NCBI GenBank assembly: GCA_016869145.1
Contig: VGEU01000002.1
Coordinates: 1 to 64,000, forward strand
Origin: Alphaproteobacteria bacterium
GTDB lineage: Bacteria; Pseudomonadota; Alphaproteobacteria; MPNO01; VGEU01
DNA length: 64,000 bases
Direction of reading: 5' to 3'
In this document: piece after piece, positions 4,318 through 39,327 of the stretch
Layout: every line of letters starts with the position of its first letter
Position numbering within the stretch: position 1 is the stretch's first letter
Position numbers and translations under genes: made by a program
Notes under the pieces: generated by a model
Database searches by the model: none
What the model saw: the letters and a program-made list of their open reading frames with translations, nothing else
Told to the model about the DNA's origin: nothing

Positions 4318-4327
4318 CGTCGCGCCG

Positions 4328-5317: not shown

Positions 5318-5329
5318 GGTCTACTCCTC

Positions 5330-5346
5330 CCGTTCCGACCGAACGG
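5330..5346. promoter_or_regulatory. perfect inverted repeat CCGTTC-N5-GAACGG in the divergent intergenic region; candidate operator
   Basis: CCGTTCCGACCGAACGG read directly; lies between divergent starts at 5317 (-) and about 5458 (+). Confidence 0.4.
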
Positions 5347-5457
5347 TTCTAGATCAGCACGGGCTCATTGTCGCGGCCGATCGTGTGTCGTCCTTTGACC
5401 CGCGGGCCGCGCTTGGCTAGGCTTGCCGCCCGAGGCTGGCGAACCGGCCCGGATCAT

Positions 5458-6477: not shown

Positions 6478-6541
6478 AACCACGGCACGAACCTGTCGCG
6501 AGGCCGTTCGTGTCGCGTCACATCACCTGTCGAGGCCGGTC

Positions 6542-14167: not shown

Positions 14168-14677
14168 TCAGATCGGATAGATGAGCGCGTTCGGAATGGT
14201 GAGCGAATCGTAGACGCAATGGCGCTCGCGCAGCAACAGCCGGCCATCGCGGCGCACGAACGTGTCCTGGTAGTGCCCGGCCTGGAAGAGCTCGGTCTTC
14301 TCCTCCATCAGCGTCTGGACGACGAGATAGTTGGCGCGCGCCTTGATCGCCCCTTCGGCGCGCACCTCGTCGATCGAGAGATTGCTGATGTAGTGGCGGA
14401 GAAAGCGCGGCTCGAACGTCGTCGTCCGGAGCGTCGCCTGCACGCGGTCCCTCATCATCTTCTTGCCGTCGCAATAGAGGAGACCGAGCGGCAGCCCGCG
14501 GTCGGCGTTGTCGCGCCCGGTCACCCGATAGAGCGCGTCATCGGTGAAGAAATCCGGCCAGCGCGTGATTTCTCCCGCATCGATGGCCTGCGCATAGGCG
14601 ACATGGAACTCCTCGATCTCGAGGCGGAGCGCCCAACGCTCCTCGAGCCTGGGAACAACGTTCCGGAGCGCGGTCAC
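14168..14677 (-). CDS. aromatic-ring-hydroxylating dioxygenase beta subunit
   Basis: LRLEIEEFHVAYAQAIDAGEITRWPDFFTDDALYRVTGRDNADRGLPLGLLYCDGKKMMRDRV; adjacent to the Rieske alpha subunit; GTG start 14677. Confidence 0.88.
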   Translation of the reverse strand: MTALRNVVPRLEERWALRLEIEEFHVAYAQAIDAGEITRWPDFFTDDALYRVTGRDNADRGLPLGLLYCDGKKMMRDRVQATLRTTTFEPRFLRHYISNLSIDEVRAEGAIKARANYLVVQTLMEEKTELFQAGHYQDTFVRRDGRLLLRERHCVYDSLTIPNALIYPI

Positions 14678-15930
14678 AGCCCCATCACCCCGCGGTAGTA
14701 GCGATACATCGAGCGCACCGCCGCCTCGGTGATCAGCGTGTCCGAGGTCCCCTCGTCGCGGCCGCCGAGGAGCGTCAGGCCTTTCTCGGTGACGGAGCGG
14801 CGCGCGCCCTCTTGCACCCACTTGATCGCCTCGTTGTCCTCGATGCCGAGAAAGCCCGCGGGTCCCATGAGATTGGACTGGCAGAGCCGGAGCTTGGTCA
14901 TCTCCTCGGTATCGTCGGCGTAGCCGAACATGGTCCAGTACATGTCGATGGAATCCGGACCGCGCGGCACGATATGGCGGACGCCGAGCGTGTTGAGCTC
15001 GCGCTGGGTGATGAAGTTCGGCCAGATGGTCTGCATAGTGACCGTCCACGGGCTCTTGAACTCCGGCACGAACCCGACGACGCGCCCGTCCTCTAGCTCG
15101 AGCTCGATCATCTTGCGCATCTCCTTGTTCACCGCCTTCTGGTCGACGCCCTCCTCCTCGTCGCCCTTAGCCGAGGCCATGGTTCCGTGGCGGCCGAGCG
15201 GATCGGCGATCATCGCCGACTTCTGCCCGGCCTTCATGAGCCCGAAGGTCACGAGGAAGGTGTGCAGCAGCGTCGCGTGATACGGGTCCTTGAGGTTCTC
15301 GTGATAGAGCTTCCAGTTGCCGTAGAGCGTGTTGCGCCAGTAGCCGAGGATCTTGAGCGGCCGGCCGTCGAAGAGCGTGTCGAAGTCCTTCAGGATCTCG
15401 GGCCCGATATACTGATCGAGCGGCTCGACATGATCGGCGTAGGACGCGAACACGACGCCGTTGCGCGTCGCGACGCGAAGCTTGCGGAGCCCGTGCTCGC
15501 TGAGCTTGAAGTCCGCCGGCATGCCACCCTTGCCCTTGACGCCGCGGCGGAACGGCACCGCGCGGAGCGACCCGTCGAGGTCATAGGTCCACTGGTGGTA
15601 CGGGCAGATGAATTCCTTCGAGTTGCCGGTCAGCGAGCGGCAGAACTCGGCACCGCGATGGGCACAGCGGTTCTCCACCACGTGCACATTGCCGTCGGCG
15701 CCGCGGGTCACGATCACCGGGGCCTCGCCGACCCAGGACCGCTTGTAGTCACCGTGATTGGGGATCTCGGCCTCGAGCGCGACATAGTTCCACGTCGGCC
15801 CGTAGAAGATCCGCTCGAGCTCGCGCTGATAGATTTCGTCACTCGTGTATAGCCAGTCGGGAACGGCGTTGAGCCCTTCCTCCGGCCAGACGAACGCGTT
15901 GCTGCTGCCGTTCGGCGGTTGGACGCTCAT
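14674..15930 (-). CDS. Rieske aromatic-ring-hydroxylating dioxygenase alpha subunit
   Basis: Rieske CAHRGAEFCRSLTGNSKEFICPYHQWTYDLDGSL; ENLKDPYHATLLHTF mononuclear iron region. Confidence 0.93.
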   Translation of the reverse strand: MSVQPPNGSSNAFVWPEEGLNAVPDWLYTSDEIYQRELERIFYGPTWNYVALEAEIPNHGDYKRSWVGEAPVIVTRGADGNVHVVENRCAHRGAEFCRSLTGNSKEFICPYHQWTYDLDGSLRAVPFRRGVKGKGGMPADFKLSEHGLRKLRVATRNGVVFASYADHVEPLDQYIGPEILKDFDTLFDGRPLKILGYWRNTLYGNWKLYHENLKDPYHATLLHTFLVTFGLMKAGQKSAMIADPLGRHGTMASAKGDEEEGVDQKAVNKEMRKMIELELEDGRVVGFVPEFKSPWTVTMQTIWPNFITQRELNTLGVRHIVPRGPDSIDMYWTMFGYADDTEEMTKLRLCQSNLMGPAGFLGIEDNEAIKWVQEGARRSVTEKGLTLLGGRDEGTSDTLITEAAVRSMYRYYRGVMGL

Positions 15931-19238: not shown

Positions 19239-19409
19239 CCGTCGACGCGGCCCGGAACGAGCGCCGCACGGACCGGAACCCGCCGCCCGCATGGGAGGCG
19301 GGTTCGCTCTTTTCGGGGTGCGGCGTGTGCGACGGGGCCTTTGGCCCTTTCGCGGTTCCGTCTATTCTCCGCGGGCGAGCATGATCGCCCCGTAAGCCAA
19401 GGTGCTTCG

Positions 19410-20894
19410 ATGCAGAACAGCAACCTCAAGGCCCACATTCCCTATGACGATCTTCGCGAGTGGATCGCGGAGGCGGAGCGTCTGGGCGAGGTTCGCGTGC
19501 TCAAGGGCCTCAACTGGCAGAACGACATCGCCGACGCCGCCGAGGCGGTGCTGCGGGCCGACCACGGCCCGGCCGTCATTTTCGACGAGGTGCCGGGCTG
19601 TCCCAAGGGTCACCGGCTCATCATCAACGTCTTCGCCGGCAAGCGCCGCAACATGACGCTCGGCTTTCCGGCCGAGCTCGACAAGCAGGAGCTCAGCGAG
19701 GCTTGCTACCAGTCCTATCAGAAGGAGCGGAAGCTCATCCCGCATGAGATCGTCGACGACGGGCCGATCTTCCAGAACGTCATGACCGGCGACGCCGTCG
19801 ATGTGACCGTGTTCCCGACGCCGATCTGGCACGCGGCCGACGGCGGGCGCTATATCGGGACCGGCACCTATACCGTCACGCAGGACCCCGACAGCGGTTG
19901 GATCAATCTCGGCACCTACCGCGCGATGATCCACGACAAGACGTCGGTCGGCTGCCTGATGGTGCCGGGCAAGCACGGCGCCATCCACCGCGACAAGTAT
20001 TTCGCGCGCGGCGAGCCGTGCCCCGTCGTGATGATCATCGGCGGCGATCCGATCACGTTCTTCTCCGGCTGCACCGAGATCCCCTACGGTGTCTGCGAGT
20101 TCGACATCGTCGGCGGGATGCGCGGCAAGCCGGTCGAGGTTGTCCGCGGCAAGATCACCGGCCTCCCCTTCCCGGCCAATGCCGAGATCGTGCTCGAAGG
20201 CTATATCGATCCCAAGACCCGCGTCGTCGAGGGCCCGTTCGGCGAATGGACCGGCTACTATGCCGGCGGCGCACGGCCGGCGCCGGTCATCGACATCAAG
20301 GCGATCTATCACCGCAACGAGCCGATCATCCTCGGCTTCCCGCCGATGGGCGCGGGCGCGGACGAGCTGTCGCGCTACCGCGCGATCATGCGCTCGGCGA
20401 TGCTGAAACAGGACATCAACAACGCCGGCGTCCCCGACGTCACCGGAGTCTGGTGCCACGAGATCGGCTCCTCGCGCCTCCTTCACGGCATCGCCATCCG
20501 CCAGCGCTATCCCGGCCACGCCAAGCAGGCGGGCGTCATCGCGAGCCAGGTCGGCGCCAGCGTCTATGCGAACAAGTACGTCGTCGTGGTCGACGACGAT
20601 GTCGACGTGAGCAACCTCGAGGAGCTGATGTGGGCGATGATCACCCGCTCCGATCCGGCGACCTCGATCGACATCATCCGCAACGCGCGCAACTCGCCCG
20701 CCGATGCGCGCCTCACGCCCGAGCAGCGTTCGATCGGCGATCTGACGACCGCGCGCTGCATCATCGACGCGTGCCGGCCGTTCCACTGGCGTGACCAGTT
20801 CCCGAAGGTCAACGCGCCGACCATCGAGGAAGCCCGCCGTGCGCGCGAACGCTTCGGCTGGATGCTCGATCCGACGGCACGCGAGAAGGCGTAG
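19410..20894 (+). CDS. UbiD family decarboxylase
   Basis: DLREWIAEAERLGEVRVLKGLNWQNDIADAAEAVLRADHGPAVIFDEVPGCPKGHR...VEGPFGEWTGYYAGG...AGVPDVTGVWCHEIG. Confidence 0.93.
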   Translation: MQNSNLKAHIPYDDLREWIAEAERLGEVRVLKGLNWQNDIADAAEAVLRADHGPAVIFDEVPGCPKGHRLIINVFAGKRRNMTLGFPAELDKQELSEACYQSYQKERKLIPHEIVDDGPIFQNVMTGDAVDVTVFPTPIWHAADGGRYIGTGTYTVTQDPDSGWINLGTYRAMIHDKTSVGCLMVPGKHGAIHRDKYFARGEPCPVVMIIGGDPITFFSGCTEIPYGVCEFDIVGGMRGKPVEVVRGKITGLPFPANAEIVLEGYIDPKTRVVEGPFGEWTGYYAGGARPAPVIDIKAIYHRNEPIILGFPPMGAGADELSRYRAIMRSAMLKQDINNAGVPDVTGVWCHEIGSSRLLHGIAIRQRYPGHAKQAGVIASQVGASVYANKYVVVVDDDVDVSNLEELMWAMITRSDPATSIDIIRNARNSPADARLTPEQRSIGDLTTARCIIDACRPFHWRDQFPKVNAPTIEEARRARERFGWMLDPTAREKA

Positions 20895-25460: not shown

Positions 25461-25931
25461 ATGCGGGTTCGCATCACCGAATATCTCGACATCGAACTCG
25501 AGTCCGAACGCTGGTGTTGCAACCGCTGCGGACACGACCTCGGCGACGCGCGCGAATCCTACAAGAAAGGCTGTCTCGTCCGCGATCGCGACCCACGCGA
25601 GATCCATTTTCCGATCGGACCGAGCAAGGAGTTCAACTTCTCCTTCGATCCCAATTGGATGCGGATCGTCGAGTTCTATTGTCCGGGTTGCGGCGTGATG
25701 GTCGAGAACGAGTATCTCCCGCCCGGCCATCCGCTGACCTGGGACATCCAGCTCGACATCGACAAGCTGCGGCAGAGACACGGCGTGACCGGGCCGAAGG
25801 TTGCGTCACGCGCGGCCCCGGCCACCAAACGCAAGAAAGTCGCGCGCGGCGGCGCGACCAAGGCGCCACGCAAGAAGGCAAGGCCGGCCGCAAAGGCCAC
25901 GAAGCGCGCGACTGCGGGACGCCGCAAATGA
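25461..25931 (+). CDS. acetone/acetophenone carboxylase gamma-type subunit with Lys/Ala-rich C-terminal tail
   Basis: CCNRCGHDLGDARESYKKGCLVRDRDPREIHFPIGPSKEFNFSFDPNWMRIVEFYCPGCGVMVENEYLPPGHPLTWDIQLDI; tail KRKKVARGGATKAPRKKARPAAKATKRATAGRRK. Confidence 0.82.
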   Translation: MRVRITEYLDIELESERWCCNRCGHDLGDARESYKKGCLVRDRDPREIHFPIGPSKEFNFSFDPNWMRIVEFYCPGCGVMVENEYLPPGHPLTWDIQLDIDKLRQRHGVTGPKVASRAAPATKRKKVARGGATKAPRKKARPAAKATKRATAGRRK

Positions 25932-28057
25932 CCATGCGCCTCGGCATTGACGTTGGTGGCACGTTCACCGACGTGGTCTTCCTCAAGGATGGCGAGATCT
26001 ATCGCGGGAAATCGGATACCACGCACTACGACCTGAAGCTCGGCTTCATGAACGCGACGCGCGTCGCGGTCGGCCGTGCCGGGCTCGAGCTCGAGGAGGC
26101 GCTGCGCGGCGCCGACGCCATCGTCTACTCGACGACCGTCGGCACCAACGCGCTGATCGAGCGTCGCGGAACCAAGCTCGGCCTCATCACGACCAAGGGC
26201 TTCGAGCACACGGTGCATGTCGGACGCGCCCGCAACTGGGGCGACGGCCTGCCGACGGAGAAGAAGTATGACCGCGGCCGTGCCGTGCGCCCGGTGCCGA
26301 TCCTGCCGCAAGACCGGATCGTCTCGGTCCAGGAACGGATCGACAATCTCGGCAATGTCATCATCCCGCTCCGCGACGACGATGTCCGGAGGCAAGTCCA
26401 GTATCTCGTCGATCAGGGTGTACGCGGCTTCGTCGTCGTGCTCCTCAACGCCTATGTCAATCCGATGCACGAACGGCGCATCGCCGAGCTGATCGCCGAG
26501 CAGTACCCGGATTGCTATCTCGGCCATATGCCGATCTTTCTCTCGCACGAGATCTCGCCCAAGAGCGGCGAGTATCGGCGCTCGATGACGGTGATCATCG
26601 ACGCCTATCTGCGCGACTTGACCGAGGGTCACCTCCTCCGCCTTTCCGACGACCTCCGCGATGTCGGCTACCGCCGGCCGGTCTTCGTCGCAAAGAACAC
26701 GGGCGGCCTGTCGTCCTTGTCGCGCACGCAAGCCCTCCACCTCCTCGGCTCCAGCCCGTCGGCGACCGTGATCGGCTCCGACTACATCGGCAAGGCGGTC
26801 GGCCACGCCAACGTCGTCGTCTCCGACATGGGCGGCACGAGCTTCGACGTCGGTCTCGTCGTCGAAGGACGCGATCGCGTCTACGAGTACGACCCCGTGG
26901 TCGAGCGCTACCGCGTGCAGATCCCCTATGTTGCGCACTGGTCGGTCGGCGCTGGCGGCGGATCGATCGCACGCATCGAGAACGGGGCGCTCCGCGTCGG
27001 GCCGCAGAGCGCGGGGTCCAATCCGGGTCCGGCCTGCTACAACCGCGGCGGCGAGGACGCGACGGTCACAGACAGCGACGTCATACTCGGCTATATCAAC
27101 CCGGACAATTTTCTCGGCGGCAAGCTCCGCATCGACCACGCGCTCGCCGAGCGCGCCGTGCGGACCAAGATCGCCGAGCCGCTCGGCGTGCCGCTCGAGG
27201 AAGCGGCGTGGAACATCAAGCGGCTGATCGACGGCTTCATGGGCCAGGAGATGTATCGCATCTGCGCCCTGACATCCGGCCAGGACCCGCGCGACTTCGT
27301 TCTTTTCGCCCTCGGCGGCGCGGGCCCCGTCCACGCGACCGGCTATGCCGACGGCACCGACGTCGGGCGCATCGCAACCTTCCCGTTCTCAAGCGTGTTC
27401 GGCGCCTTCTCGACGCTGACGCTCGATGTGCTCCAGACCTACGAGAAGACGCTCAACCTCAATCTCTACGCGCACCGCGACGAAAGCTACGCGGTCGACA
27501 ATATCGCGCGGTTCAACGCCGAGATCGACCGGCTGATGGCCTTCGCACGACGCGACATGACGGAGGAGGGTTTCGACATGGCGGGCGTCCAGCTCCAGGT
27601 CGAGATCCACATGTGCTACGGCCAGCAGCGCCAGACGCTCCCCATCCGCGTGCCGAAGGGCCGTCTCGAGAACGCCGCCGACGTCAAATATCTCTGCGAT
27701 ACGTTCAACGCCGCCTACGGCGAAAAATACGGCAAGGGCGCCGTCTATCCGGAGGCGGGCGTCGAGATGGTCGAGATGCGCCTCAACGCGGTCGGCCCGG
27801 CGGAGAAGTACCAACTGCGCCAGATCGCGGCCGACACCGATCCGGAGCGGTCGCGGACCGGCACGCGTAACGCATACTGGGGACCGAGCCACGGCTGGAT
27901 GATGACGCCCGTCTACGCCCGCGAATCGCTCGGTGCCGGCATACGCCTCCCCGGTCCGGTGCTTTGCGAGGCCGAGGACACGGTCATCGTCACACCGCCC
28001 GGCTGGACGTTCCGCGTCGACGACTGGAACGTCGGTTGGATCGAGCGGAACGGCTGA
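25928..28057 (+). CDS. hydantoinase/oxoprolinase family protein (HyuA; Apc-alpha-like)
   Basis: MTMRLGIDVGGTFTDVVFLKDGEIYRGKSDTTHYD...VVVSDMGGTSFDVGLV...GAGGGSIARIENGALRVGPQSAGSNPGPACYNRGGEDATVTDSDV; ATGA overlap with the gamma gene. Confidence 0.93.
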   Translation: MTMRLGIDVGGTFTDVVFLKDGEIYRGKSDTTHYDLKLGFMNATRVAVGRAGLELEEALRGADAIVYSTTVGTNALIERRGTKLGLITTKGFEHTVHVGRARNWGDGLPTEKKYDRGRAVRPVPILPQDRIVSVQERIDNLGNVIIPLRDDDVRRQVQYLVDQGVRGFVVVLLNAYVNPMHERRIAELIAEQYPDCYLGHMPIFLSHEISPKSGEYRRSMTVIIDAYLRDLTEGHLLRLSDDLRDVGYRRPVFVAKNTGGLSSLSRTQALHLLGSSPSATVIGSDYIGKAVGHANVVVSDMGGTSFDVGLVVEGRDRVYEYDPVVERYRVQIPYVAHWSVGAGGGSIARIENGALRVGPQSAGSNPGPACYNRGGEDATVTDSDVILGYINPDNFLGGKLRIDHALAERAVRTKIAEPLGVPLEEAAWNIKRLIDGFMGQEMYRICALTSGQDPRDFVLFALGGAGPVHATGYADGTDVGRIATFPFSSVFGAFSTLTLDVLQTYEKTLNLNLYAHRDESYAVDNIARFNAEIDRLMAFARRDMTEEGFDMAGVQLQVEIHMCYGQQRQTLPIRVPKGRLENAADVKYLCDTFNAAYGEKYGKGAVYPEAGVEMVEMRLNAVGPAEKYQLRQIAADTDPERSRTGTRNAYWGPSHGWMMTPVYARESLGAGIRLPGPVLCEAEDTVIVTPPGWTFRVDDWNVGWIERNG

Positions 28058-28090
28058 CGCAGCCCACGCGGCACGGAGATAGAGTGCGGC

Positions 28091-30226
28091 ATGACCACGT
28101 TGTTCGAACGCCACGCGCGCCTGTTCGAGGGCTATGTCTACGAGCGCGATGTCTACGGTCGGCGCCCGGGTTGCGATCCCGACCTGATCTGCCGCGGCCT
28201 CGAGCCGATCACGGAGATCGAGCGCCGTGGCCTATCGAAGGTCAGCGACGTCGACGTCGATCTCCTCAGCCACAAGCTCACCTCGATCGTCGAGGAGGCG
28301 CGCGATGTCTATACCGCGCTCTCGATCTCCGAGGGCGTGATCATGGGCGACATGAACTGCGGTCTGTTCACCGCGTCCGGCGATCCCGTCGCGGTCGGCA
28401 CCGGGATCTACTTCCACACGCTCCTCAACAACGCCCAGCTCAAATACATTCTCAAATACTACAAGAACGACCCCTCGGTCGGGCTCGCCGACGGCGACGT
28501 GTTCTTCTTCAATGAGGAGCTCGCGGGCGGTGTCCACAATCTCGACATGTTCACGGCGATGCCGATCTTCTGGGAGGGCGAGCTCGTCGCATGGGCCGAG
28601 GTCGGCGGACACCAGGGCGAGACGGGCTCGATCACCCCGGGCGGGTTCGCGCCGACCGCGAAGTCGCGCTACGAGGAAGGCATCCACCTGCCATGCATGC
28701 GGATCGGCCGGAACTTCGAGCTCCGCCAGGATATCCTGGATTTCATGGCAGGCTCGGTCCGCAACGGATTCGTGTTCGTGTCCGACCTCAAGTCGCGGGT
28801 CGCGAGCCTGTTCCAGTCGCGCCGCCGCTTCCTGCGCGAGATTGAGCGGCGCGGCGTCGAGGCGGTGTGCGCCGGCATGCGCCGGATTCTGATCCGCGGC
28901 GAGGAGCAGGCGCGGGCGCGGATTCGCGAGGTGAACGACGGCATCTTCCGCTCGATCCTGTTCAATGACGAGCACGGCACCTTCTTCGGGCTGAGCCGGA
29001 TCCCGGTGACGGTGATCAAGGAAGGCGACGAGATGGCGATTCTCGCGCAGGGCGTTTCGCCCCAGTGCGAGGACGGGCCGTTCAACTCGAGCTGGCATCT
29101 ATCGCGCGCGGCGACGGCGGTCTACCTGTTCTCGTATTTCTTCCGCGGTCTGCCGCCCAATGCCGGGCTGCTCGAGCCGGTCAAGTACTACATCGAGGGT
29201 CCGTCGATGCTGAACTCGATGGACGAGCTCGCCCACGGCCTCGCCAACCAGGTCTGCGCCTTCGTCACCCAGAACATGTACATGGCGGGCGCCAAGATGC
29301 TGTTCGACAGCCCGTACCGAATCGCGGTTCAGGCGCCGCATTCGCGCAACTACATGCTGCCGATCTTCGCCGGCAAGAACCGCCGCGGCTACTATGGCGC
29401 GAACTTCACCGGCACGACCAACGCGGCGGGTGGCGGCGGCCGCTACGACATGGACGGCGAGCCGGCGCTCGGCTTCTACTGGGGGCCGTGGACCGATGCG
29501 GGCGAGGTCGAGGATATCGACGAGCGCCTGCCGCACTTCATCCTCGCTCGCCATCTCGACAAGAACTTCCACGGCTATGGCCGCTATCGCGGCGGCACGC
29601 CGCTGATGGAGGTCGCGACCGTCTGCGGCGACGACGGCTGCGTGTTCTCGAGCTGGGGCTCGTGCGACAAGGTCACGTTCAATTTCGGCCTGTTCGGCGG
29701 CTATGCCGGTCCGCCGAATCCGCGCTTCATCATCCGCAACAGCGATTTCTTCGACCAGATTAAGGCGGGCAAGGACGTCAAGCTCGGCCAGTACCAGCTC
29801 CTGACAGAGAAGAACCTCAAGGGCAACTATCTCCTGTCGTCGAGCTCCAAGGACGCCGAGCCTCTGCGTGAGGGCGACATCATCGTCCACAGCGTCGGTG
29901 CCGCGGGCGGCTATGGCGATGTGCTCGAGCGCGATCCCGAGGCGGTACTCAAGGACCTGGAGGACGAGCAGATCACCGCCGACGTGGCGGCGAAGATCTA
30001 CGGCGTCGTCATCGACGCGAAGACCGGCCTGATCGATGCGGTGAAGACCGACAAGCAGCGCGCCGCGATACGCCGCGAGCGCCTGGCGAAGGGAAAGCCG
30101 TTCGATCAGTTCATCGCCAAGTGGCTGGCGCTCAAGCCGCCGGCGGAGATCCTGACCCGCTATGGCGGCTGGCCGGAGCCGCAGGTCCCCGGCTATCGCA
30201 AGCCGTTCTGGGGCCTTTACACCTAG
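28091..30226 (+). CDS. hydantoinase B/oxoprolinase family protein (Apc-beta / acetone carboxylase-like large subunit)
   Basis: 711 aa; SKVSDVDVDLLSHKLTSIVEEARDVYTALSISEGVIMGDMNCGLFTASGDPVAVGTGIYFHTLLNNAQLKYILKYY. Confidence 0.9.
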   Translation: MTTLFERHARLFEGYVYERDVYGRRPGCDPDLICRGLEPITEIERRGLSKVSDVDVDLLSHKLTSIVEEARDVYTALSISEGVIMGDMNCGLFTASGDPVAVGTGIYFHTLLNNAQLKYILKYYKNDPSVGLADGDVFFFNEELAGGVHNLDMFTAMPIFWEGELVAWAEVGGHQGETGSITPGGFAPTAKSRYEEGIHLPCMRIGRNFELRQDILDFMAGSVRNGFVFVSDLKSRVASLFQSRRRFLREIERRGVEAVCAGMRRILIRGEEQARARIREVNDGIFRSILFNDEHGTFFGLSRIPVTVIKEGDEMAILAQGVSPQCEDGPFNSSWHLSRAATAVYLFSYFFRGLPPNAGLLEPVKYYIEGPSMLNSMDELAHGLANQVCAFVTQNMYMAGAKMLFDSPYRIAVQAPHSRNYMLPIFAGKNRRGYYGANFTGTTNAAGGGGRYDMDGEPALGFYWGPWTDAGEVEDIDERLPHFILARHLDKNFHGYGRYRGGTPLMEVATVCGDDGCVFSSWGSCDKVTFNFGLFGGYAGPPNPRFIIRNSDFFDQIKAGKDVKLGQYQLLTEKNLKGNYLLSSSSKDAEPLREGDIIVHSVGAAGGYGDVLERDPEAVLKDLEDEQITADVAAKIYGVVIDAKTGLIDAVKTDKQRAAIRRERLAKGKPFDQFIAKWLALKPPAEILTRYGGWPEPQVPGYRKPFWGLYT

Positions 30227-30326
30227 GCATCGGATCGGCGGCCATGATCTCGCGCGCGACCGTGCCGAACCCGACCCGACCGTCCTCGAGACCGGGCGGC
30301 GGTCGTGCACCGACGGATTCCGCCTG

Positions 30327-31208
30327 ATGGCGGCGAAGATCGAGGCACTCCACCGCTCGCTTCGACGCGATCTCTTCGCCCCGATCGCTTTCTCGCTCGG
30401 CATCAAGCTCGAGCAGACGAGCTGGGACGAGATCACGGAGGACCCGTCCTTCGCCGCGTTCGTCCTCCAGTCGACGCGCCGGCTGTTCAAGTCCGATGCG
30501 CTGTTCACCTGGTTCGACGGTTGGCTCGAGGCCGAGGCCGCGGGACTGGCACCCAAGCGCGATGCGCAGGGCGGGGTCACGACCGCGCCCCAGGCGCCGG
30601 CGAGCCTTCCCGATGCCACAGCCTTCGTGAAGGCGACCCCGATCACGCGCGTCCTCGATCTGACCCGGCGCCTCTGCGAGGAGACCCGGAACGAGACCGC
30701 CGTCATCGGCTACCTGACCGGCCCGACGACGCTGACGACGCGGCTCGCAGGTGCGGCCGCGCGCGACCCCGAAGCGGTCCGCCGCGTCGCGTCGCTCTCG
30801 ATCGCGCTCGCCCGACAATATGGCGAGCTTGGCGTATCGGCGCTCGTCCTCGCCGAAGACGTCGCCGTCGCGAGCGCGGAGACGATCCGGCCCTATGACG
30901 CGCTGGTCAACGCCGCGGAGTATTACGGCATCCCGACCTATCTTCTCTGCCGGCACGCGATCGATGTCGCCCTGCGGGACGGCCTTCGGAAGCTCGGCTT
31001 TCGCGCGGTGGCATCACCCTCGGGTCCCGATCCGACTGTGCAGCTCATCGACGACGGCGCGCTCGGCGATCCGGCACACGCGCCCGCCTGGCTCGCGGCG
31101 CGACCGGGCGCGCGTGGATCGAGACTGTTCACGACCGGTTGGGATCTCGCGCCCGACATCTCCCCGGAAGTGGTGATGGGCTGGCGCACGGCGATCGCCG
31201 GCGCATGA
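30327..31208 (+). CDS. uroporphyrinogen decarboxylase superfamily-like protein
   Basis: 294 codons; ETRNETAVIGYLTGPTTLTTRLAG...GVSALVLAEDVAVASAETIRPYDALVNAAEYYGIPTYLLCRH...LFTTGWDLAPDISPEVVMGWRTA resembles UroD/MtaA-like TIM barrels. Confidence 0.65.
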   Translation: MAAKIEALHRSLRRDLFAPIAFSLGIKLEQTSWDEITEDPSFAAFVLQSTRRLFKSDALFTWFDGWLEAEAAGLAPKRDAQGGVTTAPQAPASLPDATAFVKATPITRVLDLTRRLCEETRNETAVIGYLTGPTTLTTRLAGAAARDPEAVRRVASLSIALARQYGELGVSALVLAEDVAVASAETIRPYDALVNAAEYYGIPTYLLCRHAIDVALRDGLRKLGFRAVASPSGPDPTVQLIDDGALGDPAHAPAWLAARPGARGSRLFTTGWDLAPDISPEVVMGWRTAIAGA

Positions 31209-31245
31209 TCGAGCGAAGAACAACCCGAAGCGCGGTGGACACGAC

Positions 31246-33216
31246 ATGTACAGCATAGACATCGACATCGGTGGAACCTTCACCGACGGATTCTTCACCG
31301 ACGGCAAGGACGTCCGCATGGAGAAGGTGCTGTCGACGCCGCACGACATCACCGAGTGCTTCATGAATTGTGTCGCCGCCGGCAGCAACGCGTTCGGCCT
31401 CGATCTCGCCGAGTTCCTGCGCCGGTCGTCGGTCGCGCGCGTCTCGACCACGGTCGGCACCAATCTGATCGTACAGCGCTCCGGACCGCGCCTCGGCCTC
31501 ATCGTCACCACGGGCCACGAACAGGATCTCTACGGCACCGGCAAGGCGCCGATGCTCGACCATTTCGTGCGTCAGGACATGGTGTTCGGCATCAGCGAAA
31601 GCGTCGACGACAAGGGCGATGTCGTCCGCCCGCTCGACACCGACGCGCTCCTCGCCGCGGTCCGCGAGCTCGTCCACGCCGGCGCGCGCATGATCGTGAT
31701 CAGCTTCCGGAACGCCTGGCGCAACGCGGCCAACGAGCATGCCGCGCGCACCGCGATCCGCGCCCGCTATCCGATCCACTATCTGAGGTCGGTGCCGCTG
31801 CAGTTGGGGACCGACATCGCCCATGTCGGCGACGACCACAGCCGCACGAACTCGGCGCTCCTCAACGCCTATATCCACAGCGAGATGGCGCGCACGCTCT
31901 ACCGCGCCGAGGACAAGATCCGGTCGGCTGGCTTCCGCAATCCCCTCCTGATCGTCCATTCGAATGGCGGCAACGCGCGCGTCGCCAAGACCATCGCCCT
32001 CAACACGCTTCATTCCGGTCCGGCGGTCGCGGCACGCGGTGCGGCGGAGCTCGCGGGCCTCCTCAAGCTCAAGAAGGTCGTCACCGCCGACATGGGCGGC
32101 ACCAGCTTCGACATGGCCGTCATCGACAGCGGCGACGTCCGCTACGAGGGCGAGCCCGAGATCGACGGCGTGCGCATCGCGGTGCCGATGATCTCCGTCG
32201 ATTCGCTCGGCGCGGGCGGCGGCTCGATCGCGCGCGCGAATGACGGGAAGCTCACCGTCGGACCCGATAGTGCCGGCTCCGCACCGGGTCCGGCGAGCTA
32301 TGCCAAGGGCGGCGTCGAGCCCACCGTGACCGATGCGAACGTCGTTCTCGGCTTCATCGACCCCAACTACTTCCTCGGTGGACGCATGACGCTCGACCGC
32401 GCGGCGGCGGAGCGCGCGATCGAGCGCCGCGTCGCGCGCCGGCTCGGCATCTCGGTGCCGGAGGCCGCCTTCGATATCCGCGCCGAGATCAACCGCGCGA
32501 TGGGCGAGGAGATGAGGCTCCGCCTGCGCGAGCAGGGTCACAAACCGTCCGGGTTCGCGATGTTCGCCTTCGGCGGCGGCGGCCCGCTGCACGGCTGCGC
32601 AATCGCCGATCACGTCGGGATTCGCCGGATCGTGGCGTTTCCGTTCGGCTCGGTCTTCAGCGCCTATGGCGGCTCGACGACGAGCGTCCAGCATCACTAT
32701 GCCAAGACGGTCAACCTCACGACCGGCGGTGTCGCGGAGATCGATGCCGTCCTCGCCGCGCTCCGCGACCAGGCCGAGCGCGACATGGTCGGCGAAGGTT
32801 TCGCGCTGTCCGACATCCACTACGCCGCGGGCGTCGAGGTGGTGGTCGGCGCCAAGCGCGCTTGGCACGACAAGAGCGGCAAGCGCGTGCGCGCGAAGGA
32901 CATCCTCGCCGGTGCCGGTCGCCGGGCGTCGATCGAGCAGATCAGGCTCACGGCCCGTTGCGACGTGCCGCACTGGAACCCCGCCGCGGTCAGGAAGCTC
33001 GCCAAGGGCCGGCCGGCTGCGAAGACGCGACGGCCGATCGGCTGGGAGCGCGGACGGGTCACCGACACGCCGATCTACGATCGCGACCGGCTGTCGCCCG
33101 GCCATGTCGTCGAAGGCCCGGCGCTGGTCGAGGGTCCGGATACGGCCTATGCTGTTGCGCCGGGTTGGCGTCTCGAGGTGGACCCGTTCGGCAGTCTCGT
33201 TATGATCCGGTCCTGA
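31246..33216 (+). CDS. hydantoinase/oxoprolinase family protein (HyuA; second, Apc-alpha-prime-like)
   Basis: MYSIDIDIGGTFTDGFFTDGKDVRMEKVLSTPHDI...VVTADMGGTSFDMAVIDSGDVRYEG...GAGGGSIARANDGKLTVGPDSAGSAPGPASYAKGG. Confidence 0.92.
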   Translation: MYSIDIDIGGTFTDGFFTDGKDVRMEKVLSTPHDITECFMNCVAAGSNAFGLDLAEFLRRSSVARVSTTVGTNLIVQRSGPRLGLIVTTGHEQDLYGTGKAPMLDHFVRQDMVFGISESVDDKGDVVRPLDTDALLAAVRELVHAGARMIVISFRNAWRNAANEHAARTAIRARYPIHYLRSVPLQLGTDIAHVGDDHSRTNSALLNAYIHSEMARTLYRAEDKIRSAGFRNPLLIVHSNGGNARVAKTIALNTLHSGPAVAARGAAELAGLLKLKKVVTADMGGTSFDMAVIDSGDVRYEGEPEIDGVRIAVPMISVDSLGAGGGSIARANDGKLTVGPDSAGSAPGPASYAKGGVEPTVTDANVVLGFIDPNYFLGGRMTLDRAAAERAIERRVARRLGISVPEAAFDIRAEINRAMGEEMRLRLREQGHKPSGFAMFAFGGGGPLHGCAIADHVGIRRIVAFPFGSVFSAYGGSTTSVQHHYAKTVNLTTGGVAEIDAVLAALRDQAERDMVGEGFALSDIHYAAGVEVVVGAKRAWHDKSGKRVRAKDILAGAGRRASIEQIRLTARCDVPHWNPAAVRKLAKGRPAAKTRRPIGWERGRVTDTPIYDRDRLSPGHVVEGPALVEGPDTAYAVAPGWRLEVDPFGSLVMIRS

Positions 33217-33231: not shown

Positions 33232-33386
33232 CGGGGGCGATCGGCAACGGGGGCCGACATGGCCGCGGTCCTGGACGGAATGCGCGCCGCCCGCATGAAG
33301 CCGACCGGACCGTAGACCGCTGTCGCGGCCGCCCGTCCTGATGTAGGGTCGCGCACGCACGCGACTGGTTGCAAATGGAGGCCCGC

Positions 33387-34565
33387 ATGGCGGGAGCGTT
33401 GCAAGGCATCACCGTCATCGAGCTCACCACGATGATCACCGGCCCCTTGTGCGGGCAGATGCTCGGCGACCTCGGCGCCAATGTCATCAAGCTCGAGAAC
33501 CCCAAGGGCGGCGATCCGTTCCGCAATTTCCGCGGCGGGCTCTACAGCCCCCACTATTGCGCCTACAACCGCAACAAGCGGAGCATCACCGTCGATCTCC
33601 GCTCCGAGGCCGGCAAGAAGATCGCGCTCGAGCTGATCGATCGTGCGGACGTGGTGCTCGAGAATTTCCGGCCGGGCGTGATGGATCGGCTCGGTCTCGG
33701 GCTGAAGACGCTGCGGGCGCGCAATCCGCGGCTGATCTACGCCTCGATCACCGGGTTCGGAAAGGACGGCCCCTACAAGGATCGGCCCGCCTATGACGCG
33801 GTCGCGCAGGCGATCGCCGGCACCTCGAGCCTGTTCGTCGATCCCGAGCGTCCGCAGCTCACTGGCCCGACGATTAGCGACAACCTCACCGGCATCTTCG
33901 CCTGCCATGGAATCATGGGCGCCTTGTTCGAGCGCGAGCGGACCGGCGTAGCGCGGACGATCGAGGTCAACATGCTCGAATCGACCGTCGCGCTGTCGCC
34001 CGACCCGTTCGCGAATCTCACCCAGCTCTCCATTCCGCAGCATCCGCTGAGCCGCGTCTCTGCGTCGCAGTCCTATGCGCTCCTTTGCGCCGACGGCAAG
34101 CTTCTCGCGATCCATCTTTCGTCGCAGGAGAAATTCTGGGAAGGCGTGACAACGGCCTTCGATCGGATGGATCTGCGCCAGGATCCGCGCTTCGCCACGC
34201 GCATGTCGCGCATCGAGCACTATGTCGCGCTCGGCGATGAGTTCCGCAAGACCGCGCCGCGTCGCCCGCGGCTCGAGTGGATGCAGCGGCTCGAGGCGAA
34301 CGACGTGCCGTTCGCGCCGATCAACACGCTCCCAGAGGTGATGGAGGATCCGCAGGTCCGCCACCTCGGCACCTTCTTCGACTACACCCACCCGACCGAG
34401 GGCTCGATCCGCGCGATCCGTCGGCCGGTCTGGATCGACGGCTCGCGCGACGACCAGCCGCTGATCCCGCCGCCGACGCTTGGCGAGAACACCGATCAGA
34501 TACTGGCCGAACTCGGCTATAGTGCCGATCGGATCAAGACGCTCCGCGACGGCGAAATCGTGTGA
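33387..34565 (+). CDS. CoA-transferase, CaiB/BaiF (class III) family
   Basis: GITVIELTTMITGPLCGQMLGDLGANVIKLENPKGGDPFR...YNRNKRSITVDLRSEAGKK...ADVVLENFRPGVMDRLGL. Confidence 0.93.
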   Translation: MAGALQGITVIELTTMITGPLCGQMLGDLGANVIKLENPKGGDPFRNFRGGLYSPHYCAYNRNKRSITVDLRSEAGKKIALELIDRADVVLENFRPGVMDRLGLGLKTLRARNPRLIYASITGFGKDGPYKDRPAYDAVAQAIAGTSSLFVDPERPQLTGPTISDNLTGIFACHGIMGALFERERTGVARTIEVNMLESTVALSPDPFANLTQLSIPQHPLSRVSASQSYALLCADGKLLAIHLSSQEKFWEGVTTAFDRMDLRQDPRFATRMSRIEHYVALGDEFRKTAPRRPRLEWMQRLEANDVPFAPINTLPEVMEDPQVRHLGTFFDYTHPTEGSIRAIRRPVWIDGSRDDQPLIPPPTLGENTDQILAELGYSADRIKTLRDGEIV

Positions 34566-34587: not shown

Positions 34588-35820
34588 ATGAAAGGGGCGC
34601 GTCGTTTTCGAGAACAGAAATGGCTCCTCGATTCGGTGATCTCGACCGTCGGGCTCGACTGGGACCAGCTCCGCATGGCCGTGACGGTCGCGCCGTCGGG
34701 GTTCGAAGGCGCCGGCGACTGGGCAGTGATCGCGGCCACGGTGAAGCGATTTGACGAGATCACGCCCGGCTTCCACGTCGGCGGCGACCGTCGTCTCGTT
34801 CGTGCCCAGGAGGCCGATGCCCGCGGCGACCGGACGAGCGCGCGCGAGTCCTACCTGATCGCGGCCATTTATTACGGCATCGCGCAGTGGCCGATCGACG
34901 AGGACAGCGCGCTCAACACGGAGCTCAACGCGAAGAAGATCGCGGCGTTCACAAAATACGCGTCGATGGCCCATCACCGGATCGAGCGGGTCGAGATGCC
35001 GATGGGCCGCCACACGATCCCGGGCTGGCTCCACATCCCGGTCGGCGCCACGGCGCCTTTTCCCGTCGTCATCATGTTGCCCGGCATGGACACCTTCAAG
35101 GAGAAGCTCGTCTGGGGCTATGGCGACAAGATCCTGGAACGCGGCATGGCCGCGCTCGCGATCGACGGGCCGGGCCAGTCGGAGGCGCTCGTCAACGGGC
35201 TCAAGGTGACGGCGGACAACTACGCCGACACCGCGCTCGCCTGCATGAAGTTCATCGAGTCGCGGAAGGATCTCGACGCCGATCGCGTCGGCATTTTCGG
35301 GCGCAGCTTCGGGTCCTATTTCGGGACCGTCATGGGCAACGCGCTCGGCGGCAAGCTCCGCGGCGTCGCGGTCGGCCTGCCGTGCCATGAGCCCGGCTGC
35401 CACACGATCTTCGAGCAGGCCTCGCCGACCTTCAAGAACCGCTTCATGTATATGGCGGGCTACGATGACGAAGCGGCGTTCGATCGCTTCATCAAGGATT
35501 TCGATCTCAGGAAGCGCGTCGGCAACCTGACCTGTCCCTATCTCGTGCTAGGCGGCGAGCTCGACGAGCTGTCGCCGATCCGCCACACCTATGATCTCGT
35601 CTCCCACGTCCCGGGGCCGACCGAGCTCGTGATCTACCAGAACGAGCGCCATGCGCCGGGCCGCAGCCCCGCCTCGCAGTTCGGGCCGCACTGGTACACG
35701 ACGATGGCGGACTGGCTCGGCACGCGGGTGCGCGACCGCAAGGCGCCGACCGCGAACCGCTTCATGTACGTCACCGCGTCGGGCAAGGTCGAGGACCGGC
35801 CCTTTCCGACGCGGCGCTAG
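34588..35820 (+). CDS. alpha/beta hydrolase, 2,6-dihydroxypseudooxynicotine hydrolase / FrsA-like
   Basis: HHRIERVEMPMGRHTIPGWLHIPVGATAPFPVVIMLPGMDTFKEKLVWGYGDKILERGMAALAIDGPGQSEA...RVGIFGRSFGSYFGTVMG. Confidence 0.82.
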   Translation: MKGARRFREQKWLLDSVISTVGLDWDQLRMAVTVAPSGFEGAGDWAVIAATVKRFDEITPGFHVGGDRRLVRAQEADARGDRTSARESYLIAAIYYGIAQWPIDEDSALNTELNAKKIAAFTKYASMAHHRIERVEMPMGRHTIPGWLHIPVGATAPFPVVIMLPGMDTFKEKLVWGYGDKILERGMAALAIDGPGQSEALVNGLKVTADNYADTALACMKFIESRKDLDADRVGIFGRSFGSYFGTVMGNALGGKLRGVAVGLPCHEPGCHTIFEQASPTFKNRFMYMAGYDDEAAFDRFIKDFDLRKRVGNLTCPYLVLGGELDELSPIRHTYDLVSHVPGPTELVIYQNERHAPGRSPASQFGPHWYTTMADWLGTRVRDRKAPTANRFMYVTASGKVEDRPFPTRR

Positions 35821-35848: not shown

Positions 35849-37369
35849 ATGCTCCGAACCGGCAAGCAGTATGTGGACGCGATAAAGTGTCGTGCCGACG
35901 TCTATGTCGGCGGTGAGCGCGTCAAGGACGTCACGACCCATCCGGCGTTCCGCAATTCGGTCGCCTCCGTCGCACGGCTCTACGACGTCACCTCGGACCC
36001 GAAGAACCGGGACAGGCTGAGCTATGTCGAAGCCGAGACCGGGACGCGGTGCAACAGCATCTTCCTCCGACCCCGATCGGTCGACGATCTCGCCGCCCGC
36101 CGGCGCGTGCACGAGGCGTGGGGTGACGAGACGTGGGGCCTTCTCGGCCGCTCGCCCGACCACGTCGCAGCTTTCATCACGGGCATGGCGTGCAAGCCCG
36201 ACGTGTTCGATCTGCACAACCAGGGCTTCTCGCGCAACATCACCGACTACTGGCGCTACATCCGCGACAACGACCTCTACCTCGCCTATGCCGTCGTGCC
36301 GCCGGCCGGCGCCAAGGGCTCCGAGGCGGTGGCGACGCCGCAGAAGAAGGCGTCGACGGATTCGCAATGGGGCGAGAACGCCGGGCTCCGGGTCGTCAAG
36401 GAGGACGATTCGGGCATCACGGTGTGGGGATTCAAGATTCTCGCCACCGCGGCGATCCTCGCCGACGAGGTGCTGGTCGGCAACGTGCTGCCGCTGGCCC
36501 CCGGCGAGGAGAAGTCGGCGATCACATTCGCGCTCCCGGTCGATGCGCCCGGCCTCAAGCTTCTGTCGCGCCGGCCCTATGAGAAGCTCGCGCTGAGCGA
36601 GCTCGACGACCCGCTCGCCTACCGTTACGACGAGACCGACGCCGTCGTCTTCTGCGACAACGTCAAGGTGCCGTGGGAGCGCGTTTTCGCCCACAACCAC
36701 ATCGATACCGCGCGCGCGATCTTCTACGACACGCCGTCGCACACGCTCGGCAACGCACAGGCCCACATCCGTCTTCTGTCGAAGCTGAGGCTGACCCTCG
36801 GTATTGTCCGCAAGATCGCCGAGCAGAACGGTATCGCCCAGATTCCCGCGGTCCGCGACACGATCTTCGGCCTCGGCGTCCGTGTCGCGATGGTCGAGGC
36901 GCTTATCGTCGCCCAGGAGGCTCGCCCGCAGCAATGGCCCGACGGCTATGTCTCCCAGGACCGTCAGACCATGTACGCGACGATGTCGTGGACGATGGAG
37001 TACTATCCGGAGTTCGTCCGCATCGTGCGCGAGCTCCTCGGCAGCCATCCGTTCCAGCAACCCGCCGACGTCAGCGTGTTCGACAATCCGGTGACCGCCC
37101 ATATCTTCGCCAAGTTCTCGGTCGGAGATTCGGCGCAGGCTCTCGAGCGCTACAAGCTGATGCGGATCGCCTGGGATCTCGTCGGATCGGAGTTCGCGAG
37201 CCGCCACACGCAGTATGAGATGTTCTATGCAGGCCCGCGCCATGTCACGCGCGGACGTTCCGGCTACTATTTTCGCTGGGACGTCGTCGACCGCGAGGCG
37301 GAAAAGGCGCTTGCACGGCTTGGCGATTATGACAGGCTGGTGAAGAACCGCGCCCGCGCGCGCGGCTGA
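35849..37369 (+). CDS. 4-hydroxyphenylacetate 3-monooxygenase (HpaB)-family flavin monooxygenase, oxygenase component
   Basis: MLRTGKQYVDAIKCRADVYVGGERVKDVTTHPAFRNSVASVARLYD...NITDYWRYIRDNDLYLAYAVVPP...DAVVFCDNVKVPWERVFAHNHIDTAR. Confidence 0.9.
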   Translation: MLRTGKQYVDAIKCRADVYVGGERVKDVTTHPAFRNSVASVARLYDVTSDPKNRDRLSYVEAETGTRCNSIFLRPRSVDDLAARRRVHEAWGDETWGLLGRSPDHVAAFITGMACKPDVFDLHNQGFSRNITDYWRYIRDNDLYLAYAVVPPAGAKGSEAVATPQKKASTDSQWGENAGLRVVKEDDSGITVWGFKILATAAILADEVLVGNVLPLAPGEEKSAITFALPVDAPGLKLLSRRPYEKLALSELDDPLAYRYDETDAVVFCDNVKVPWERVFAHNHIDTARAIFYDTPSHTLGNAQAHIRLLSKLRLTLGIVRKIAEQNGIAQIPAVRDTIFGLGVRVAMVEALIVAQEARPQQWPDGYVSQDRQTMYATMSWTMEYYPEFVRIVRELLGSHPFQQPADVSVFDNPVTAHIFAKFSVGDSAQALERYKLMRIAWDLVGSEFASRHTQYEMFYAGPRHVTRGRSGYYFRWDVVDREAEKALARLGDYDRLVKNRARARG

Positions 37370-37507: not shown

Positions 37508-38014
37508 ATGGCCACGCTCGCGCGAATCCACGACAATCTGACCCGCCTCGGCTTTCAGATCAGCGCCCTCCTGCTCGGTCTCATCACCGTCGTCTACTGC
37601 CTCGAGGTGGTGCTGCGATACGTGTTCAACGCGCCTACCACGTGGGGCGGGGAGGCGATCGCCTACTCGCTCTGTATCGGCGTGTTTCTCGCGATGCCGC
37701 ACGTGACCAAGATCGGCGGGCATGTCGCGGTCACGATCGTCATCGAGAAGACGTCACCGCGGGTCGGGCAGATGATCAGCTGGGTGATCTATCTCCTCGC
37801 CTTCGTGTTCTGCGCCATCGGAACCTGGATCAGCCTCGATGAGAACATCCGGCAATATGTCCAGAAGGTGAACCTGATGAAGGTGCACCCCATTCCGCAG
37901 TGGTGGATTTCCGTCTTCATCACCTATGGCTTCGCGATGTCGGCGATCCACTATCTCCGCAAGCTCAGCTTGCGGCATTTCGCGGCCGAGCGGCTGACTA
38001 GCGGGAAGGTCTAG
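37508..38014 (+). CDS. TRAP transporter small permease (DctQ)
   Basis: Four-TM DctQ-like; TVVYCLEVVLRYVFNAPTTWGGEAIAYSLCIGVFLAMPHVTKIGGHVAV. Confidence 0.88.
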   Translation: MATLARIHDNLTRLGFQISALLLGLITVVYCLEVVLRYVFNAPTTWGGEAIAYSLCIGVFLAMPHVTKIGGHVAVTIVIEKTSPRVGQMISWVIYLLAFVFCAIGTWISLDENIRQYVQKVNLMKVHPIPQWWISVFITYGFAMSAIHYLRKLSLRHFAAERLTSGKV

Positions 38015-38016
38015 CC

Positions 38017-39327
38017 ATGGAATGGTGGGCGATCCTTCTTTACGGCATGGCGATCTTGCTCGCCCTGTTCATGTCTGGCGTGCCGATCTACCTGACCTTC
38101 CTCGTCATCAATGTCGGCGGCGTCCTCCTTCTCCTCGGCCAGGCCGGCTTCGGCATGTTCGCCAACAGCCTGTTCGAGACGACGAACACCGAGGCCCTGT
38201 CGGCGATCGCTCTGTTCATTCTGATGGGTGAGATTCTGTTCCGCTGCGGCGCGATCGACGCGAGCTTCGGGGCGATGGACAAGCTGGTCGGCCGGGTGCG
38301 CGGCCGCCAGTTCTTCCTCTGCATCTCGCTCTCGACGTTCATCGGTGCCCTCGCGGGCTCGGCCATGGGGGTCGCCGCCATGCTCGGGCGTAGCCTCTAC
38401 CCGGCGATGGCGACGCGCGGCTACGACGTCCGCCTTTCGATCGGAACGATCCTTTCCGGCGCGAGCCTCGCGCCCATCATTCCGCCGAGCGTCCTCGTCA
38501 TCATCATCGGCTCGCTCGCCGACACCTCGATCGCCGACCTCCTGATCGCCGGCATCCTGCCGGGCTTTCTCCTCTCGGCGCTCTTTCTCGGCTACGTGAT
38601 CATCCGCATTCGTATGAACCCGGGCCTCTATCCGGAGATGTCCAAGGAGCCGTCGCGCGATTCGACGTCACGCGACAAGATCCAGGCGTTCTGGGACCTG
38701 ATGCCGATCAACCTGATCCTGATCGTCGTGATGGGCTTCATCATGTTCGGGATCTGCACGCCGTCGGAATCGGCGGCGCTCGGTGTCATAGGGGCGGTCA
38801 TTTCGGCGGTCTACTACCGCACCCTCAGCTGGAAGATGATCTGGGATTCGCTCCTCGAGTCGGCGGCGATCTCGTCGATGGTCATGGTCATCATGGCCTG
38901 TGCGACGATGTTCTCGCAGCTTCTCGCCTTCACCGGCGCGACGGTCGCTCTCACCCAGTGGGTCGCGAATCTCGGCCTCGATCCGCTCGCCATGCTGTTC
39001 GTCATGCTGGCGATGCCGTTTATCTGGTGCATGTTCTGCGACCAGATCGCGCTCCTGATCGTGATCACGCCGATTTACCAACCGCTCCTCAAGGCGCTCC
39101 AATTCGATCCGGTCTGGTTCTGGACATTGATGCTGATCAACGTCACCGTCGGCGGCATGACGCCGCCGTTCGGCTACACCATGTTCGCGTTCAAGGGCGC
39201 GGCGCCGGACGTGTCGATGCGCGACATATTCGCCGCGTCTTGGCCGTTCGTCTGGCTCTACGTCCTCAGCATGGTGATCATCGCGCTCTTTCCCGGCGTC
39301 GCGACCTGGCTGCCCAAGGTCCTATAG
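38017..39327 (+). CDS. TRAP transporter large permease (DctM)
   Basis: FMSGVPIYLTFLVINVGG...GSAMGVAAMLGRSLYPAMATRGYDVRLSIGTILSGASLAPIIPPSVLVIIIGSLADTSIADLLIAGILPG...TPPFGYTMFAFKG. Confidence 0.95.
   Translation: MEWWAILLYGMAILLALFMSGVPIYLTFLVINVGGVLLLLGQAGFGMFANSLFETTNTEALSAIALFILMGEILFRCGAIDASFGAMDKLVGRVRGRQFFLCISLSTFIGALAGSAMGVAAMLGRSLYPAMATRGYDVRLSIGTILSGASLAPIIPPSVLVIIIGSLADTSIADLLIAGILPGFLLSALFLGYVIIRIRMNPGLYPEMSKEPSRDSTSRDKIQAFWDLMPINLILIVVMGFIMFGICTPSESAALGVIGAVISAVYYRTLSWKMIWDSLLESAAISSMVMVIMACATMFSQLLAFTGATVALTQWVANLGLDPLAMLFVMLAMPFIWCMFCDQIALLIVITPIYQPLLKALQFDPVWFWTLMLINVTVGGMTPPFGYTMFAFKGAAPDVSMRDIFAASWPFVWLYVLSMVIIALFPGVATWLPKVL

Follow-up and report, generated by a model that had tools for sequence, protein, structure and literature searches.

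Acetophenone carboxylase (Apc) of Aromatoleum aromaticum consists of five subunit types, and structures have been solved for its core (5l9w) and for its epsilon subunit, ApcE (9fou, released 2025-12-24). In the solved core, the kinase sites of alpha and alpha' are 50 Å apart, seven Apc-alpha residues have been suggested as the lining of the acetophenone pocket, and an alpha/beta-interface fingerprint (R/KERiDsxG) is present in Apc-alpha and absent from Apc-alpha' (PMC5214803). The same 2017 structure paper reported that ApcE is required for Apc activity, called epsilon elusive, and found close epsilon orthologues in just two other gene clusters (PMC5214803). Within the library searched, we found no publication that describes the 9fou structure and none that links Apc to uroporphyrinogen decarboxylase (UroD). 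Acetone carboxylase (AcxABC), another ketone-carboxylating enzyme, also has alpha, beta and gamma subunits, the gamma with a longer N-terminus of its own, and has neither alpha' nor epsilon. Hydantoinase, 5-oxoprolinase and caprolactamase (HyuAB, CapAB) share the alpha and beta families and are devoid of gamma, alpha' and epsilon. Breakdown of acetovanillone proceeds by ketone carboxylation, CoA activation and then beta-keto hydrolysis in the Hpe/Acv pathways of Rhodococcus GD02 and Sphingobium SYK-6, in which the phenol kinase is separate and the carboxylase depends on biotin (PMC9618137). Here, we describe an alphaproteobacterial locus in which the Apc subunit types are encoded in a permuted order.

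Results

Five Apc-type subunits are encoded together

The locus lies in a window of 64,000 nucleotides, the whole stretch of DNA analysed here. Five co-directional ORFs had been proposed previously, and re-reading of the sequence bore out both the ORFs and their coordinates:

25461..25931, + strand: gamma (ApcB-like), 156 aa; Zn-ribbon C20/C23/C74/C77; Lys/Ala-rich C-terminal tail
25928..28057, + strand: alpha (ApcC-like ASKHA kinase; proposed ketone kinase), 709 aa
28091..30226, + strand: beta (ApcD-like, HyuB family), 711 aa; H149-x-x-D152 and GGH (His174)
30327..31208, + strand: epsilon (ApcE-like; UroD/MtaA-superfamily barrel), 293 aa
31246..33216, + strand: alpha' (ApcA-like ASKHA kinase; proposed bicarbonate kinase), 656 aa

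The successive intergenic gaps are −4, 33, 100 and 37 bp. A longer in-frame start at 30162 is possible for epsilon, and the family alignment favours the 293-aa form. The gamma gene of this cluster is the only one in its genome, which encodes just two UroD-family proteins (the window epsilon and HemE) and eight more HyuA genes outside the cluster, all of the hydantoinase type.

Pfam matches of the core subunits had E-values from 1e-34 to 1e-78, far beyond chance, with gamma matching PF08882 at 4e-34. Against NCBIfam, the best models were ApcB for gamma (150 bits, E 3e-44; cut-off 250), ApcC, that is Apc-alpha, for alpha (580 bits; cut-off 1500), ApcD for beta (341 bits; cut-off 1500), ApcA, that is Apc-alpha', for alpha' (465 bits; cut-off 1250) and ApcE for epsilon (47 bits, E 1.7e-12; cut-off 450). 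Among solved structures, the best matches of the four core subunits were chains of the Apc core: 5l9w_C for gamma (E 7.6e-41), 5l9w_B for alpha (E 1.6e-158), 5l9w_A for beta (E 1.3e-91) and 5l9w_b for alpha' (E 1.6e-112). Window alpha is less similar to AcxABC (E 1e-109) than to Apc (E 1e-158). All five Apc subunit types are thus encoded together, with lengths similar to those of Apc. However, none of the five reached its equivalog cut-off, so that the enzyme, although of the Apc type, is probably not acetophenone carboxylase itself.

The ASKHA ATP motifs are intact in both alpha (DVGGTFTD, DMGGTSFD and GPQSAGSNPGP) and alpha'. The interface fingerprint reads QERIDNLG in window alpha, with Q instead of R/K at the first position, whereas alpha' has SESVDDKG in its place; with Q allowed, the fingerprint was found in 51 of 77 alphas versus 0 of 80 alpha's in the surveyed loci. 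As in Apc, the gamma subunit has its Zn cysteines, C20, C23, C74 and C77 being invariant in an alignment of 11 gammas, and it has no long N-terminal extension. By contrast, six of the seven ketone-pocket residues of Apc-alpha are changed in window alpha, leaving Pro285 alone. Where ApcA has DVGGTTTK, window alpha' has DMGGTSFD; among the ApcA residues compared, Asp274 is kept while Glu248 is replaced by His and Lys281 by Asp, and window alpha' therefore resembles, by sequence, the ordinary members of the family more closely than ApcA does.

The epsilon subunit is modelled as a UroD-fold protein

Window epsilon scored 36.2 bits against PF01208 (gathering score 23.9), and both this score and Foldseek place it in the UroD superfamily. 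A single-sequence search of the PDB returned ApcE (9fou, E 1e-7) as the sole trustworthy relative. With a profile of 44 epsilon-family members, 9fou was matched at 7.6e-39, the MtaA methyltransferase 4ay7 at 1.5e-19 and a UroD at 0.0045; in profile-profile comparison over about 297 columns, MtaA-like proteins (E 4e-15) and HemE (E 6e-12) were matched. The AlphaFold2 model of epsilon is a confident one (pLDDT 89, pTM 0.89), and Foldseek again put 9fou on top (E 3.9e-14, TM about 0.73), followed by MtaA and then by many UroDs. The divergent epsilon of L057, on another branch, was likewise modelled confidently (pLDDT 90.5) and matched 9fou, then UroD and MtaA, although proteins of its kind have no Pfam or NCBIfam match above the curated cut-offs. 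A Pfam search with the aligned fragment of 9fou did not return URO-D either, so sequence profiles alone would miss the link between ApcE and UroD.

While fold and profile similarity are shared with UroD and with MtaA/CmuA, the catalytic Arg pair and the Zn ligands are not. The Arg pair of UroD (MRQAGR) and the HxCG zinc site of MtaA are both missing from epsilon, and on these grounds we rejected it as an independent UroD or MtaA enzyme. Asp64, which aligns with UroD Asp86, is conserved in 63% of the family; conserved residues in window numbering are Asp57, Arg115, Gly132-Pro133, Glu177, Asn195 and Tyr200. Matches to family profiles and to solved structures, the predicted fold and the conservation of epsilon in dozens of clusters together support the UroD-like protein as the counterpart of ApcE, as the earlier note had supposed. 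Its further claim, that the UroD fold is the new element of this locus, fails because the closest structural match is ApcE itself. The UroD fold is the general fold of epsilon, already represented by solved ApcE.

Two HyuA-type subunits form mirrored subclades

In a tree of 86 HyuA-type proteins, window alpha and alpha' fell into two mirrored subclades with largely identical organism sets. The tree is a fast LG+G4 one with some long branches, its reference chains being aligned stretches and not full chains, so its deep order should not be over-read. Grouping alpha' with hydantoinases, acetone carboxylase and oxoprolinase was rejected (AU p 0.0147), whereas the same grouping of the window-type alpha clade was not (AU p 0.62).

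Epsilon-bearing clusters are widespread

Searches with the ApcE model over 61 relatives and with window epsilon over 395 genomes of the class returned the window's own genome only, and an epsilon query found nothing on plasmids. These single-sequence searches were nearly empty because epsilon is too divergent, which a gamma-based scan overcame. The scan covered 85,488 species genomes, and 80 loci were taken from at least 553 candidate stretches encoding relatives, a sample biased toward window-like gammas. After plasmid and genome loci were added to these 80, an iterative HMM search from window epsilon over 2044 ORFs yielded 65 epsilon homologues, 63 of which adjoin Apc-type carboxylase genes. 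All four core genes are present in 70 clusters, with epsilon found in 57 by ORF search and in 3 more (L033, L070 and L090) by a genome search that located it in the expected place where simple ORF calling had missed it. With epsilon beside the core genes in about 60 of these 70 clusters, from bacteria and archaea alike, its range is far wider than the 2017 literature describes. One Thermoleophilia genome (FR_37, G794; L088, also L054) holds 17 epsilon-profile matches on one chromosome, which could reflect either numerous systems of the Apc kind or a sizeable UroD/MtaA family. Separately, one Apc-like cluster of a Chloroflexota MAG carries two beta-subunit genes in tandem (L080:11330-15470).

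At least four gene orders were found among Apc-like clusters, and gene order is therefore not diagnostic of the wider family. The Apc order apcABCD(E), alpha'-gamma-alpha-beta-epsilon, occurs in 36 clusters; alpha'-gamma-epsilon-alpha-beta in 15 clusters plus variants; gamma-alpha-beta-epsilon-alpha', the order of the window, in 5 clusters and two that are cut off; and alpha'-epsilon-gamma-alpha-beta in 2 clusters, both haloarchaeal. The last pair, from Haloterrigena and Halopenitus, and the alpha'-gamma-epsilon-alpha-beta clusters of Azoarcus, Desulfarculaceae and G712 all have five subunits with an epsilon of the same family, but their alpha' subunits belong to clades other than that of the window.

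Taken together, the profile and structure matches, the modelled fold and the recurrence of these genes over dozens of clusters support the earlier assignment of the locus to the Apc type. Two findings had been named in advance as fatal to that assignment, namely both HyuA proteins falling in the hydantoinase/oxoprolinase clade and absence of the UroD-like gene from all orthologous clusters; instead, alpha' is kept out of that clade (AU p = 0.015), and the UroD-like gene adjoins most of those clusters.

A permuted-operon subclade with a conserved CoA-transferase

The window is a member of a distinct subclade whose gene order is permuted to gamma-alpha-beta-epsilon-alpha', in most cases with a class III CoA-transferase gene next in line. 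Besides the window, this order was found in Actinomycetota and in two MAGs, one from Bradyrhizobiaceae and one deltaproteobacterial and filed under Myxococcota. The CaiB-type gene sits directly 3' of alpha' in L030, L032, L033 and L040, and does so without epsilon in two Chloroflexota clusters, L029:9686-17820 and L036:9728-17823, in which the order is gamma-alpha-beta-alpha'-CaiB and the space between beta and alpha' has no epsilon gene. A search for epsilon elsewhere in these genomes found none in that of L029 and a weak match only (E 2.2e-4) in that of L036; the Chloroflexota lineage therefore appears to run without epsilon or with an unrecognised replacement. In L107, an M20 hydantoinase/carbamoylase-family gene (L107:5408-6700) directly follows alpha', in the place that CaiB takes in other subclade clusters, and a VanA-type Rieske enzyme with its reductase lies on the opposite side of the cluster.

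Defluviicoccus divides the system between two contigs, of which one has alpha-beta-epsilon-alpha' (L105, L106) and the other gamma. Its gammas (L025:8654-9091, L026:9950-10417 and L027:10001-10417) are 72-82% identical to window gamma and sit between CaiB and a TRAP transporter, with a VanA-type Rieske enzyme also present in L026. A gamma-only system was considered for these orphan genes and rejected, as the remaining four subunits are encoded elsewhere in those genomes, on separate contigs. The match between window and Defluviicoccus gammas extends into the Lys/Ala-rich tail (residues 108-156; 25784-25931), which is absent from many gammas.

Neighbouring genes

Downstream of alpha', the window continues on the same strand with genes that follow at gaps of 2-158 bp:

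33375..34565, + strand: class III CoA-transferase (CaiB/Frc family), PF02515 E 1e-105; proposed CoA activation of a beta-keto acid
34588..35820, + strand: alpha/beta hydrolase (AbH; dihydroxy-pseudooxynicotine hydrolase/Ayg1/AntI group), 2jbw E 1.2e-14, 8qd7 E 1.1e-12
35849..37369, + strand: HpaB-type flavin-dependent phenol hydroxylase, PF11794/PF03241; 9lft E 6e-65, 2yyk E 1e-61
37508..39327, + strand: TRAP permeases, small DctQ and large DctM, PF04290 and PF06808; proposed substrate uptake

The CaiB protein takes the place of the benzoylacetate-CoA ligase of the Apc system. It is 67-69% identical to the CaiB adjoining gamma in Defluviicoccus, and the nearest models of this conserved protein are formyl- and succinyl-type CoA-transferases. 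AbH and HpaB lie directly behind it, with gaps of 22 and 28 bp, and neither is conserved beside the relatives' clusters. Dihydroxy-pseudooxynicotine hydrolase and the Ayg1/AntI proteins cut C-C bonds adjacent to carbonyls. TRAP genes recur among relatives: in L035 a DctQ-DctM pair immediately precedes gamma, and in Defluviicoccus a DctM gene lies downstream of gamma. VanA-type Rieske enzymes adjoin two relatives. Close to the window cluster, two amidases are encoded. Upstream in the window are a Rieske ring-hydroxylating dioxygenase pair (14171-15930), whose best NCBIfam models, below cut-off, are AndAd and AndAc (anthranilate 1,2-dioxygenase), and a UbiD-family decarboxylase (19407-20891), with the phenylphosphate carboxylase beta subunit as best model, also below cut-off.

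Discussion

We consider the locus to encode a five-subunit, biotin-independent, ATP-dependent Apc-type ketone carboxylase of the permuted-operon subclade, with a probability of roughly three in four. The best matches to ApcC, ApcA and the other Apc subunits, the motifs, the co-occurrence of epsilon, the recurrence of the CaiB-followed subclade in several phyla and the phenolic or aromatic neighbours count for this reading. Counted against it are the missed equivalog cut-offs, the six changed pocket residues, the lack of conservation of AbH and HpaB beside relatives, the AU p = 0.62 of alpha, the two Chloroflexota clusters without epsilon, and the M20 gene of L107 and the two amidases near the window, which are compatible with amide chemistry. 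These last genes and the unrejected union of the alpha clade with hydantoinases and oxoprolinases would equally suit an ATP-dependent cyclic-amide hydrolase of hydantoinase, lactamase or oxoprolinase type that had acquired gamma, alpha' and epsilon and opens a ring amide. However, hydantoinases consist of alpha and beta only, without gamma (PMC5214803), none of the genome's eight hydantoinase-type HyuA genes comes with a second gamma or epsilon, and the gene conserved right next to the cluster encodes a CoA-transferase rather than an amidase, leaving such a hydrolase unlikely. That the UroD-like protein is an independent methyltransferase or decarboxylase, simply co-transcribed with the carboxylase, is highly improbable: its kinship in sequence and fold with MtaA and UroD and the frequent retention of Asp64 are offset by the loss of both catalytic motifs, by a best structural match, ApcE, that is itself needed for Apc activity (PMC5214803), and by the adjacency of nearly all family members to carboxylase genes in no fewer than four orders.

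The nature of the ketone is a separate matter. AbH, HpaB, the AndAc/AndAd-like dioxygenase and UbiD are the basis on which a phenolic aryl ketone is favoured as the substrate. It is nevertheless quite possible that an Apc-type carboxylase acts here on an aliphatic or acidic, TRAP-imported ketone and that the aromatic genes are unrelated neighbours, given that TRAP permeases recur by the subclade, CaiB is nearest to formyl- and succinyl-type transferases, the pocket differs from that of Apc, and AbH and HpaB are specific to the window. The tight packing of AbH and HpaB after CaiB, the VanA-type enzymes by two relatives and the Rieske dioxygenase and UbiD genes upstream argue for the aromatic substrate instead. 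Because AbH and HpaB are not conserved in relatives, and TRAP and CaiB also fit other ketones, we take the phenolic aryl ketone no further than a preference.

For the Apc-type carboxylase with such a substrate, we infer the following course by analogy with Apc. Alpha would phosphorylate the enol form of the ketone to an enol phosphate, alpha' would phosphorylate bicarbonate to carboxyphosphate, and beta and gamma would form the core scaffold. Epsilon, devoid of UroD and MtaA catalytic motifs, may dock so as to shut the complex and hand CO2 or carboxyphosphate from one kinase site to the other. The product would be a beta-keto acid, probably from a phenolic aryl ketone, which the CaiB-type transferase could convert to a CoA ester; AbH is a candidate retro-Claisen hydrolase for cleaving the C-C bond of the CoA-activated beta-keto compound, and HpaB might hydroxylate the resulting phenolic product. 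Carboxylation, CoA activation and beta-keto hydrolysis would succeed one another as they do in the Hpe/Acv pathways, whose system is not homologous to that of the window.

A bolder and rather doubtful alternative for epsilon is that it acts as a repurposed UroD active site instead of a passive clamp, with the barrel and its conserved residues taking carboxyphosphate or CO2 from alpha' and forming the C-C bond. Were these proposals true, a decarboxylase fold would serve as a carboxylation chamber, and the permuted-operon subclade would be a carboxylase family for ketones not yet assigned. The UroD-fold epsilon family in bacteria and archaea, some members of which are annotated as hypothetical, gives the UroD barrel a role in ATP-dependent carboxylation that can be put to the test, and the permuted subclade with its CoA-transferase may mark a set of CO2-fixing ketone pathways. 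Since the epsilon counterpart ApcE has the same solved fold, the operon represents a new branch within an enzyme family already known and not a new type of machine. Elsewhere in the window (1990-8869), two CO-dehydrogenase-type molybdenum large subunits are encoded in opposite directions, and next to each lies an ORF (4331-5317 and 5368-6474) with no Pfam or NCBIfam match.
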